From: Meiothermus cerbereus DSM 11376
GTDB taxonomy: Bacteria > Deinococcota > Deinococci > Deinococcales > Thermaceae
Direction: 5' to 3'
Assembly (NCBI RefSeq): GCF_000620065.1
Contig: NZ_JHVI01000007.1
Location: 64,501-128,500, forward strand
DNA: 64,000 nt
This document shows, piece by piece, positions 18,390 to 45,546 of the stretch (position 1 is the stretch's first letter; the number at the start of each line of letters is the position of its first letter). A program made the translations under genes and the position numbers. The notes under the pieces were generated by a model. It was not told where the DNA came from and made no database searches. It worked only from the letters and a program-made list of their open reading frames with translations.

Positions 18390-18507
18390 TGTGTCTCCGG
18401 TGGGATTGCCGTCTGGTATGCCGACAGCAGGCAACCCTGTCAGTGTAGCCGAAGAATCGGGGTTTTGTATACAGCAACATTTACAAAGTCTTCACCGCTT
18501 TCTGAGC

Positions 18508-18596
18508 GCGGTTCCCACGAATACCCAGTACCACAAAAACCGTTGTACGGGGGGTCAAATACGCTGCGTACCATACAGCGCAAGGGTGGGAACCGC
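18508..18596 (+). repeat. R3 repeat, copy with perfect 11-bp terminal inverted repeats
   Basis: GCGGTTCCCAC at the left end and GTGGGAACCGC at the right bound an 89-bp element. Inside is CACGAATACCCAGTAC, shared with a diverged copy at 45235-45310 in the opposite orientation. It occupies most of the approximately 290-bp gap upstream of typA, in which I see no gene. Confidence 0.72.
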
Positions 18597-30570: not shown

Positions 30571-31998
30571 ATGGATATATCCCGCCTGGTTCAAAAATCC
30601 GAGTTTGAGTGGTGGCTGGAGGCCACCCCCCCCATGCGGGTGCCCGGCATCCTGTATGCCAGCGAAGCCCTGTTGCGCGAGATGGACGACAAGGTGCTGG
30701 AGCAGATCGCCAACGTAGCCAGCCTGCCGGGGGTTGTGCAGGCGGTGTACGCCATGCCCGATGCCCACTGGGGTTATGGTTTTCCCATTGGGGGGGTGGC
30801 GGCTTTCCGCGAGGAGGATGGGGTGGTCTCGGCGGGTGGGGTGGGGTTCGACATCTCCTGCGGGGTGCGGACCCTCCACACCGGCCTGACGGTAGACCAG
30901 ATTGAGCCGATTAAGGAAGACCTGGCCCAGGGGCTCTTCCGCCACGTGCCGGCAGGGGTGGGAAGCATCGGCAAGATTCACCTCGAGCCCGCCGAGCTCG
31001 AGGCCATGCTGCAAGGTGGGGCGGTATGGGCCGTGGAGCGTGGCTACGGAAGGCCCGAGGATTTAACGTACATCGAGGAGCAGGGCCGCATGGAAGGGGC
31101 GCTGCCCGAGCAGGTCTCCGCGCAGGCCAAACGGCGTCAGGCCGACGAGATGGGCACCCTGGGCTCCGGCAACCACTACCTCGAGGTGCAGCAGGTGACC
31201 GAGGTGTATGACCCGGTGGTAGCCGAGGCCTTTGGTGTAAAGGTGGGCGATGTGCTGGTGAGCATCCACAGCGGCTCGAGGGGCCTGGGCCACCAGGTTG
31301 CCACCGACTTCAGCAAACAGATGATTCAGGCCGCCCACAAATACGGCCTCGAGCTGCCAGACCTCGAGCTGGCCTGCGCCCCCATCCAGTCCGAAGAGGG
31401 CCAGGCCTACCTGGGGGCCATGCGGGCCGCCATCAACTGCGCCCTGGCCAACCGGCAGATCCTGACCCACCTGGCCCGCGAGGCCTTCGCCTACCTGCTG
31501 CCCCAAGCCGACCTACGTCTGATTTACGACGTCTCGCACAACACCGCCAAGCTCGAGGAACATCTGGTAGATGGCAAACCCCAGCGGCTCTACGTCCACC
31601 GCAAAGGGGCTACCCGCGCCCTCGGCCCCGGTCACCCGGCCCTACCGCAAGCCTACCGGGCCGTCGGCCAGCCGGTGCTGATTGGCGGAACCATGGGCAC
31701 CGCCTCGTACATCCTGGTGGGCACCCAGGAGGGCGTGGTCCGCTCGCTAAGCTCGTCCTGCCACGGGGCCGGACGGGCCATGAGCCGCCACCAGGCCCTC
31801 AAGCACTGGCACGGCAAGGAAGTGGTGCGCGAGCTGGGCCAGCGGGGCATCATCGTGCGCAGCCCCTCCCCCCGCGGCGTGGCCGAGGAAGCCCCCGGCG
31901 CCTATAAAGACGTAACCGCAGTGGTGGACGCCGCCCACGCCGCCGGACTCTCGCGCAAGGTAGCGCGGCTCGAGCCCCTTATCTGCATTAAGGGGTAA
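30571..31998 (+). CDS. rtcB: RNA-splicing ligase RtcB
   Basis: The 475-residue ligase has the Mn/GTP signatures: SAGGVGFDISCGVRTL (metal-binding Cys), GSGNHYLEVQ, HSGSRGLGHQ, and SSCHGAGRAMSR containing the guanylylated His. It joins 2',3'-cyclic phosphate and 5'-OH RNA ends. I chose the ATG at 30571, four bases after GGAGG; the ATG at 30553 would overlap archease. The TAA stop coincides with one of the 3-bp direct repeats flanking the mobile-element-like R4 repeat. Confidence 0.96.
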   Translation: MDISRLVQKSEFEWWLEATPPMRVPGILYASEALLREMDDKVLEQIANVASLPGVVQAVYAMPDAHWGYGFPIGGVAAFREEDGVVSAGGVGFDISCGVRTLHTGLTVDQIEPIKEDLAQGLFRHVPAGVGSIGKIHLEPAELEAMLQGGAVWAVERGYGRPEDLTYIEEQGRMEGALPEQVSAQAKRRQADEMGTLGSGNHYLEVQQVTEVYDPVVAEAFGVKVGDVLVSIHSGSRGLGHQVATDFSKQMIQAAHKYGLELPDLELACAPIQSEEGQAYLGAMRAAINCALANRQILTHLAREAFAYLLPQADLRLIYDVSHNTAKLEEHLVDGKPQRLYVHRKGATRALGPGHPALPQAYRAVGQPVLIGGTMGTASYILVGTQEGVVRSLSSSCHGAGRAMSRHQALKHWHGKEVVRELGQRGIIVRSPSPRGVAEEAPGAYKDVTAVVDAAHAAGLSRKVARLEPLICIKG

Positions 31999-32154
31999 TA
32001 CCAGATTCGGTTAGTTCGTTACCGAACGGTGATGAACTAACCCGACCGAAGGGATGCGCTTTCTTCGCCGAGCGCAGCGAGGGGTGTGCTCTAGGATTCA
32101 AAAAGATAGCCCCTTGATGTTTTTTGTTTGAAGAGTATCTTTTTGAATCCGGTA
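31999..32154 (-). repeat. R4 MITE-like element, long copy
   Basis: The 156-bp element has terminal inverted repeats TACCAGATTC / GAATCCGGTA (one mismatch) flanked on both sides by TAA. It is near-identical to 45316-45440 in reverse orientation except for about 31 extra bases in the middle. It contains two hairpins: GGTTAGTTCGTTACCG paired with its partner, and TTCAAAAAGATA / TATCTTTTTGAA. It has no coding capacity. Confidence 0.82.
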
Positions 32155-32297
32155 TAACCAGCAAGTTCTTTGGAGCCTCATACTGGGTTACGTCGCGGGC
32201 TTCATCAGGAGAGGTAAGCCATTGCAATTGCCTTTCCCACAAAGGGCTTCAATTGGCCCGGCTTTATTGAGACCTGGATAGCAATGGTTTCAACACC
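32155..32297. other. Spacer between the R4 element and the copper-operon terminator
   Basis: Together with the R4 copy and the terminator this is a gene-free stretch of about 350 bp (31999-32350). A minus-strand frame (32242 leftward, reading into the R4 element) has no recognisable family; it might be a relic interrupted by the element, but that cannot be shown. Confidence 0.4.
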
Positions 32298-32332
32298 AAA
32301 AAAATACCGAGCCTGGCTTCACAGACTCGGTA
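32298..32332 (-). terminator. Rho-independent terminator of the copper operon
   Basis: On the minus strand TACCGAG-T-CTG pairs with CAG-G-CTCGGTA around a short loop, and TTTTTTT follows directly. It lies 18 bases past the DUF305 stop. Confidence 0.85.
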
Positions 32333-32946: not shown

Positions 32947-35604
32947 CTAAGCAAGCCCCTGCGCCAGCTCTCCCACCGGGGCCACAACCTTAGGCCCAAA
33001 CGGCGGCCTGAAAGAACGCAGGCGCAGGGCGTTGGACAGCACAAATAGCGAAGAGAGGCCCATGGCCGCTCCGGCCAGCATGGGCGAGAGCAGCCAGCCC
33101 GTAAATGGGTACAAGGCCCCTGCCGCCACTGGAATCAGGAGCACGTTGTAGGCAAAGGCCCAGAACAGGTTGAGCTGGATGTTACGCAAGGTGGCCCGCG
33201 AGAGCGCAATGGCGTTCGGCACACCCCGCAGGTCGCCCGAGATCAGGATCACATCGGCAGTCTCGATAGCCACGTCGGTTCCGCTGCCAATGGCGATACC
33301 CACATCGGCCTGGGCCAGCGCGGGCGCATCGTTGATGCCATCGCCCACGAAGGCCACCTTTTGGCCCTTGTTCTGGAGTGCCCGCACCGCCTCGGCCTTA
33401 CCGTCCGGCAGAACCTCGGCCTGCACCTCGTCGATACCAAGCTGGCGGGCAATGGCGTGGGCGGCGCGGGTATGGTCGCCGGTAATCATAGCCACCTTGA
33501 AGCCCTGGCGGTGCAGGGCGGCAATGGCCTCCGGGCTACCCTCTTTGATGGGATCGGCCACCGCCAGAATCGCCGCCAGTTTTCCGTTAATTGCGGCGTA
33601 GAGGGGGGTCTTGCCCGCATCGGCCAGGCGGGCGGCCTCGCTACCGAAGACCGAGACATCCAACCCCAACCGCGCCATGTAGCGATCAGCCCCCACGTCC
33701 ACGCGGACGATCCCCGGTTGGGACAGACCGCTATCGCGGCTGTTCACCGGGCGGACGATCCCCTCTTGGGACAGACGGCTATCGCCGCTGTTCACCGGGC
33801 GGACGATCCCCGGTTGGGACAGACCGCTATCGCGGCTGTTCACCGGGCGGACGACGCCCACCTGGCCGCTCACCCCGAGGCCGGGGAAAGCCTCGAAGCC
33901 CTGCGGCTCGCTGAGCGGTAGCCCTCTGGCCTGGGCCACCTGCACGATGGCGCGGGCGATGGGGTGCTCCGACTTCTGCTCGAGGGAGGCCACCAGCGCG
34001 AGCACCTCAGCCTCGTTGAAGCCTGGGGCCACCTCGAGGTCGGTCAGTTCGGGCCTGCCCCTTGTGAGGGTTCCGGTCTTGTCGAGGGCCACCACCCGGG
34101 CCTCTTGCAGCGTCTGCAGCGCCTCACCCTTGCGGAAAAGCACCCCCAGCTCGGCGGCCTTGCCGGTGCCCACCATGATGCTCACCGGGGTGGCCAGGCC
34201 CATGGCGCAGGGGCAGGCGATAATCAGCACCGCCACGGTGTTGACCAGGGCAAAGGTGAGGGCATTTTCACCGCCAAACACCAGCCACACCAAGGCCGTA
34301 AGGGCAGCGATGGCCAGCACGATGGGCACAAAGACCGCCACCACCCGGTCGGCCAGGTTCTGGATGGGGGGTTTGGAAGCCTGGGCGTTTTCGACCAGCC
34401 TAATAATCTGCGCCAGCACGGTGCCTTCGCCCACCGCCGTGGCCCGAAAGGTGAGGGTTCCGTTCTGGTTGATGGTTCCCCCAATCACCCTGTCCCCCTC
34501 GGTTTTACGTACCGGGATGGGCTCGCCGGTGATCATGGACTCGTCCACGTAGCTCTGTCCCGAGACCACCACCCCGTCCACCGGGATTTTTTCACCGGGC
34601 CGAACCACCACCAAATCGCCTGCCAGCACCTCGTCCACGGGGATTTCCCGCTCGAGCGTCCCCTCCACCACCCGCGCGGTCTTGGCCTGCAGCGAGAGCA
34701 GCCGCCGCATGGCTTCGGAGGTGCGGCCTTTGGCCAGGGCCTCGAGGTACTTGCCCAGGAGTATCAGGGTAATGACCACCCCCGCCGCCTCGAAATAGGC
34801 ATGGCGGGCCTGCGGGGGAAAGAGGCCTGGAAAAAGCACCACCCCCAAGCTGTAAAAGTAGGCCGCGCTGGTGCCCAGCATCACCAGGCTGTTCATATCG
34901 GGCGAGCCTGAGCGCAGGCTCTGCCAGCCGTGGCGGTAAAAGCGCAGGCCCGGGCCAAACTGAATGGGGGTAGCCAGGGCCAGCATCACCCAGTTTAGGC
35001 TGCTCATCACGCCGTGCCCAAAGGTGGCCATCAGCCAGGCCTCTAGGGGTGGGAAGAGCATCGGCAGCATGGCGACCAGGAAGAGGGGCAGGGCGAATAC
35101 CGCCGAGATGAGCAGTGCGCGGCGCAGATCGGCCACTTCTTTGGCACGGGCCTCGCGCTCGAGGTCGGCCCGGCCCTGGCCCGTTCCCAGCTCGAGCACG
35201 CCGTAGCCCGCCTCGCGGATGGCCCGCTTGAACTGGGCCACGCTGGTGCTGGCCGGAAGGTACTTCACCCAAGCCCGCTCGGTAGCCAGGTTGACGCTGG
35301 CCTCCAGCACCCCCTCCAACTTCTTCAAGGCCCGCTCCACCCGGTTCACACAGGCCGCGCAGGTCATGCCGGTCACGCCCAGTTCGACCTCGGCCACCAC
35401 CGGGGTGTAGCCCGCCTCGCGCACCTTCTCCAGCAGGGCCTGGGAGGTGGTCTTTTGGGGGTCGTAGACCACGTGAGCGTGCTCGGTTGCCAGATTGACC
35501 GAGACCGCCTCCACCCCTTCAAGCTTCTTCAGCCCGCGTTCCACCCGGTTCACACAGGCCGCGCAGGTCATGCCCTGGACGCCGATTTGCAGCTCTTTGC
35601 TCAT
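32947..35604 (-). CDS. copA: Copper-exporting P1B-type ATPase with internal tandem repeat
   Basis: The 885-residue protein has two heavy-metal-binding domains (GMTCAAC, Cys14/Cys17 and Cys82/Cys85), eight expected membrane spans, the actuator TGEPIPV, the metal-translocating motif [10 protein letters not shown], the phosphorylation site DKTGTLT, the [10 protein letters not shown] nucleotide motif and [10 protein letters not shown]. It exports Cu(I). Oddity: residues 587-634 of the nucleotide-binding domain are three tandem 16-residue repeats ([16 protein letters not shown] and a variant) encoded by 48-bp palindromic DNA units. The frame is intact, and 16 bases separate it from csoR upstream. 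Confidence 0.95.
33703..33846 (-). repeat. Three tandem 48-bp palindromic repeats inside copA
   Basis: Copies are at 33703-33750, 33751-33798 and 33799-33846, with a 9-base remnant after. Copies 1 and 3 are identical; copy 2 differs at four bases. Each unit can fold: outer stem CCGGT/ACCGG, inner stem ACAG-CCGC/GCGG-CTGT, loop TATC. Two of the four changes in copy 2 swap one base pair (C-G to G-C) in the inner stem. Confidence 0.95.
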
Positions 35605-45234: not shown

Positions 45235-45310
45235 CGGTTCCCAACAATTACCCTACGCGCGTTTACCCAGTACAGCAAAAACCGCTGTACTGGGTATTCG
45301 TGAGAACCCC
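45235..45310 (-). repeat. R3 repeat, diverged copy
   Basis: It contains a near-perfect hairpin, ACCCAGTACAG / CTGTACTGGGT around an A-rich loop, with ends GGTTCCCAAC and GTGAGAACCCC. It aligns in reverse to 18508-18596 and its core resembles 1959-1990. Confidence 0.68.
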
Positions 45311-45315
45311 TCTTA

Positions 45316-45440
45316 TACCAGATTCAAAAAGATACTCTTCAAACAAAAAACATCAAGGGGCTATCTTTTTGAATCCTAGAGCACTCCCTTCGGTCGGGTT
45401 AGTTCGTCACCGTTCGGTGACGAACTAACCGAATCTGGTA
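45316..45440 (+). repeat. R4 MITE-like element, short copy
   Basis: The 125-bp element has perfect 10-bp terminal inverted repeats TACCAGATTC / GAATCTGGTA and TTA on both flanks. The right half is a 16-bp perfect hairpin (GGTTAGTTCGTCACCG, loop TT). The left half is a second stem, TTCAAAAAGATA / TATCTTTTTGAA. It matches 31999-32154 in reverse apart from an approximately 31-base gap. Confidence 0.85.
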
Positions 45441-45447
45441 TTATATG

Positions 45448-45546
45448 AACCCCACCTGAAGCTTTCTGTTTAGGGCAGGTCAGAGCCGACCGAATGCAAG
45501 GGCAGCTCCTGGCGCAGCTTCAGGTGGGGGCCCCAGCAAAAAGAAC
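45448..45546 (+). repeat. R1 repeat, intact copy
   Basis: CCCACCTGAAGC (45451-45462) pairs perfectly with GCTTCAGGTGGG (45517-45528). The tail GCCCCAGCAAAAAGAAC matches copy 1 at 1811-1900. It ends 15 bases before the lipoprotein gene's stop. Confidence 0.75.

Follow-up and report, generated by a model that had tools for sequence, protein, structure and literature searches.

The rtcB gene of Meiothermus cerbereus DSM 11376 ends in a TAA codon that is followed directly by a 156-bp sequence with inverted-repeat ends and then by a second TAA, which raises the questions of whether this sequence is a mobile element, how it came to lie on a stop codon and what moves it. The locus was analysed in a window of 64,000 nucleotides (contig NZ_JHVI01000007.1, positions 64,501 to 128,500), and genome-wide searches were made in the window's own assembly, comprising 3.03 Mb in 54 contigs. 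An initial annotation of the window had proposed a MITE-like element that transposed with a 3-bp duplication. We consider that reading as a whole, a non-coding transposon moved in trans with duplication of a 3-bp TNA target, to be very probable. The element is short and without a transposase gene, has terminal inverted repeats, is flanked by a duplication of fixed length and occurs as many near-identical dispersed copies.

Structure of the element at rtcB

The boundaries first proposed for the element at rtcB (copy 1), with TAA on both sides, were exact to the base, and its left TAA does terminate the rtcB reading frame, as had been claimed (Table 1). The ends required correction, being imperfect 10-bp inverted repeats in which TACCAGATTC and TACCGGATTC match at nine of the ten positions. 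The 156-bp element is non-coding and carries no transposase gene; the single ORF of at least 80 aa overlapping it (84 aa, minus strand) spans the element and both of its flanks. One hairpin lies beside the left end and another at the right end, and the outer part of the right hairpin overlaps the right terminal repeat. The second copy noted initially, flanked by TTA on both sides, was recovered in the window as a 125-bp form on the minus strand.

Table 1. Coordinates of the two element copies, their parts and their flanks, numbered from the first nucleotide of the window
Feature	Position	Strand	Basis
rtcB, tRNA-splicing ligase RtcB, 481 aa	30553–31998	+	ORF and Pfam PF01139, E=1.5e-169
Left target-site duplication TAA of copy 1, also the rtcB stop codon	31996–31998		Sequence; TNA duplication genome-wide
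MITE copy 1, 156-bp form	31999–32154	+	Sequence, genome-wide copies and end-pattern counts
Left terminal inverted repeat TACCAGATTC	31999–32008	+	Conserved at left ends counted in the genome
Palindromic hairpin H1, 15-bp stem, 4-nt loop	32009–32042	+	Fold z=-5.3; family-wide compensatory changes
31-bp segment of the 156-bp form, missing from the 125-bp form	32055–32085	+	Comparison of two consensus sequences and the window copies
Hairpin H2, GGATTCAAAAAGATA (32094–32108) pairing with TATCTTTTTGAATCC (32136–32150)	32094–32150	+	DNA fold; conserved arms
Right terminal inverted repeat GAATCCGGTA	32145–32154	+	Conserved at right ends counted in the genome
Right target-site duplication TAA of copy 1	32155–32157		Sequence
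Target-site duplication TTA of copy 2	45313–45315		Flank reading
MITE copy 2, 125-bp form	45316–45440	-	Window comparison and consensus
Target-site duplication TTA of copy 2, abutting repeat R2	45441–45443		Flank reading

Several other repeats were observed in the same window. A second interspersed repeat, R2 (ending in GGGGTTCATA), lies at approximately 45441–45530 and at 1810–1852, and recurs elsewhere in the genome at loci L005, L007, L016, L030, L048, L053, L114, L116, L122, L303, L306, L307 and L314. In the R2 copies examined a TNA comes right after the repeat, and in several of them (at window copy 2, L007, L016 and L030) the MITE is inserted precisely at this TNA. R2 may itself be mobile and follow the target rule of the MITE. 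A third interspersed repeat, GGTTCCCACGAATACCCAGTAC, is found at window positions 18505–18531 and 45287–45313 as well as at L009 and L014, and adjoins some of the MITE copies. In addition, a copper P-type ATPase gene on the minus strand contains tandem 48-bp in-frame repeats (33703–33865), and short sequences resembling them recur elsewhere in the genome, on contigs C14, C53, C15 and C37, which gives the impression that the gene has taken up an interspersed repeat.

Genome-wide copies, target sites and empty sites

A nucleotide search of the assembly returned dozens of MITE copies. The end pattern TNATACCRGATTC with a flanking TNA matched 170 times genome-wide, at 87 left and 83 right ends, and the reversed control of this pattern gave no match in the genome. 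The ends pair into 78 elements, and the same TNA was found on both sides of 75 of these, where 30% would be expected (P=6.5e-36). Flanks were also fetched for 82 complete copies, the genome holding at least that number; 50 of them are 125 bp long, 29 are 156 bp long and three are of other lengths. Identical TNA trinucleotides flank 77 of the 82 (TTA in 29, TAA in 26, TCA in 11 and TGA in 11), and none of the 82 has a 4-bp flank match. The initial annotation had held that the transposition reading would fail if other copies lacked a flanking duplication, and these counts instead support transposition with a 3-bp duplication. Outside the TNA, a palindromic target preference was present on both sides (S-N-W-S-TNA-S-W-N-S), with G/C as the first base outside the TNA, A/T as the second and G/C as the fourth.

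Mean pairwise identity was 96–98% inside each length class. Only 39 distinct sequences were found among the 82 copies, one of them occurring 18 times, which indicates that the MITE has spread recently in this genome. The shortest form of the family is possibly a 44-bp element at L122 (G000:C25:6566-6615), which consists of the left end and its inverse alone, TACCAGATTCGGTTAGTTCG-GTGA-CGAACTAACCGAATCTGGTA, and has mismatched flanking trinucleotides (TTA and TGA).

An empty site was found for a copy on the small contig C41 (L325), within a reading frame that matches carbon-nitrogen hydrolase in its C-terminal part. Once joined, the flanks of this copy give a gap-free alignment of 220 bp, at 98–99% identity, with the related genomes G002 and G015, in both of which one TGA occupies the place of the TGA-element-TGA of the present genome. 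The comparison directly demonstrates that the element inserted and that 3 bp were duplicated. The gene is interrupted, because the net 128 bp shift its frame. It was also observed that the interrupted gene is 98–99% identical to those of two other species of the genus, and that identity at the other compared loci is about 70–90%, a difference that suggests the gene was probably acquired by recent horizontal transfer.

For rtcB itself, the initial annotation had suggested comparing the downstream regions of relatives for an empty site with a single TAA. One part of this expectation was borne out: no element lies downstream of rtcB in relatives with a readable 3′ end (e.g. G002, G004 and G013), so that the element is not a fixed feature of orthologous loci with the same flanks, a pattern that had been named as evidence against transposition. 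The other part was not: the spacer downstream of rtcB is unconserved among the relatives, and for this reason none of them gave a base-exact empty site.

Matches to the MITE were found in 19 of the 61 genomes searched, all within three genera of one family, the Thermaceae. These genera are Meiothermus, Calidithermus and Allomeiothermus, with bearers including Meiothermus hypogaeus and Calidithermus chliarophilus; the other genera among the 61 genomes gave no matches. M. taiwanensis and Allomeiothermus silvanus also carry copies on plasmids, and a search of a phage collection returned no match. A literature search found no description of this high-copy repeat, a new family within the well-known class of bacterial MITEs. 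A repeat common to the three genera is now explained, with its boundaries and its target rule, and can be used to trace recent changes in the genomes of these thermophiles.

Hairpins and stop codons

The fold of the element as DNA (z -5.3) could also be expected of a functional repeat resembling REP, ERIC or BOX, kept as an RNA hairpin, mRNA stabilizer, terminator or protein-binding site, and many copies do lie at gene 3′ ends. Compensatory change in the left hairpin, H1, is likewise strong. Among 105 distinct left hairpins 82% of cells are Watson-Crick pairs, and 141 double-change cells were counted, over distinct sequences without correction for relatedness, against a shuffled mean of 46 and a maximum of 59; the covariation was lost when one arm was slid. 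This covariation alone is nevertheless no proof of a selected function, because strand switching across the palindrome also keeps its arms matched, and both orientations of the H1 loop, GAAC and GTTC, are found, which would fit such switching. The right hairpin, H2, is conserved and displays little covariation. A functional repeat is further argued against by the absence of the element downstream of rtcB in readable relatives, by the copy that breaks a gene on C41 and by the lack of any promoter-like or terminator-like pattern (including a T-run) inside the element and of any Rfam match at E≤1 in window positions 31900–32300. Retention for such a function is in our view very unlikely.

The coincidence of the TNA with a stop codon recurs beyond rtcB, in about one copy in five. 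Among 68 copies with enough flank and lying outside called genes, the TNA falls exactly on the stop codon of a flanking gene in 14, whereas TNA sites outside genes, taken together, predict 4.2 (P=6e-5). The excess of about threefold is approximate, as is the null, genes having been called by a simple ORF/GC3 method. When each site was weighted by a target preference derived from the remaining copies, the expectation increased only to 5.3 (P=6e-4), and a smaller test on 39 copies showed an excess in the same direction. At locus L026, relatives have a stop codon and no element at the position corresponding to the insertion.

The excess is likely to reflect survivorship. Insertions into stop codons would be harmless, tolerated and persistent, because duplication of the TNA rebuilds TAA or TGA and leaves the protein unchanged. 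At rtcB the element has inserted into the stop codon, and since TAA fits TNA the duplication has regenerated the stop, with no change to the RtcB protein. This is a simple way for a mobile element to strike genes harmlessly. The same counts, and their persistence after weighting by the target motif, would also be produced by true targeting, in which the transposase itself prefers stop codons. TAA and TGA, however, are among the TNA targets on either strand, and selection acts on the intergenic space that precedes genes, so that insertions are expected to accumulate at harmless sites; given also the approximate gene calls and null, we regard true targeting as unlikely. Equally speculative is a safe-harbour strategy, in which the preference S-N-W-S-TNA-S-W-N-S would fit GC-rich final codons followed by TAA or TGA so that stops are rebuilt, and the palindrome would be retained for a role in the transposition process.

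Candidate transposases and known elements

The family raises the question of which transposase moves it. A putative DDE transposase would recognize the TACCRGATTC ends and act in trans, and the target would be cut with a 3-bp stagger at TNA, leaving the TNA duplicated. The initial annotation had suggested searching for an IS with TACCAGATTC-like ends, and no such IS emerged. In the genome itself, a search by transposase family (DUF4096 and DDE_Tnp_1) gave no transposase locus with TACCRGATTC ends. Apart from those truncated at contig edges and a few in short copies that have diverged, the exact MITE ends in the assembly that could be judged all lay in short elements. Two annotated plasmid stretches contained no parent. 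In 17–19 genomes, variant ends with Y or RY after TNATACCRGATTC were rejected as parents, since they belonged to variant MITEs or to sequence unrelated to the element. Right ends left unpaired in named relatives were traced to decayed or truncated MITEs, one assembly gap and one MITE split by an IS5 element, and those outside the Thermaceae to chance matches. An autonomous element with the exact ends was thus found neither in the assembly nor among the ends sampled in relatives, and the mobilization in trans proposed initially fits this result.

The TNA target rule alone points to IS5/IS1031. According to PMC12016507, elements of the IS1031 group of the IS5 family target TNA and generate exclusively 3-bp repeats, and the MITE shares both this target and this duplication length. 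A resident IS that has the ends GAGACTGTCTTAAAAC and encodes an IS5-type (DUF4096) transposase was also identified, and an end search allowing up to two mismatches found it flanked by TNA at 11 of 11 ends, read one end at a time, with contigs breaking inside its copies. Because the group is reported to use TNA and this resident element is TNA-flanked, we lean by analogy towards an IS5-family, IS1031-type transposase as the driver. Mobilization by the resident IS itself is not claimed, because its ends (GAGACTGTC) are unlike the TACCRGATTC of the MITE. These dissimilar ends, and the lack of an IS with matching ends in the assembly or among those sampled in relatives, would suit an ordinary MITE moved by a transposase of another 3-bp-duplicating family, or by an autonomous element that is lost or unassembled. 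Such an origin is possible but somewhat doubtful, as duplication of TNA alone is characteristic of the IS5/IS1031 group and the IS5-type element of the same genome is itself TNA-flanked in every case.

IS5-type elements were also observed next to MITE ends. On contig C2 (L096/L336, G000:C2:1-337) one is positioned exactly at the TNA next to a MITE end, and on contig C7 (L345, G000:C7:105941) another lies beside the MITE-end-like sequence AGATTTGGTA-TGA. The two loci suggest that the same TNA targets have been used in a nested fashion.

Among known systems, the mosaic SNRs of Deinococcus radiodurans (PMC1978522), of the same phylum, are alike by description, being short, non-coding modular repeats, and no shared origin is claimed. 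The RUP, Correia and ERIC elements (PMC2229807) are similarly short, palindromic and interspersed in many copies per genome, but mostly have a terminal TA motif, whereas the Meiothermus MITE duplicates TNA with a variable middle base. Assignment to this TA type was rejected, as all three bases of TNA are duplicated and the middle one is identical on the two sides. The IS1031 group, e.g. ISLrh (PMC12016507), has the same TNA preference and exclusive 3-bp duplication, but encodes a transposase and has ends of the GA.CTGTC type rather than TACCRGATTC. MITEAba12 of Acinetobacter (PMC6382973) differs in its 9-bp duplications and in a coresident parent IS that shares its ends, in contrast to the 3-bp TNA of the Meiothermus MITE, for which no parent was found. 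In other respects the two are alike, MITEAba12 being a non-coding element of about 110–160 bp with terminal inverted repeats, a target-site duplication and many copies, for which mobilization in trans has likewise been inferred.
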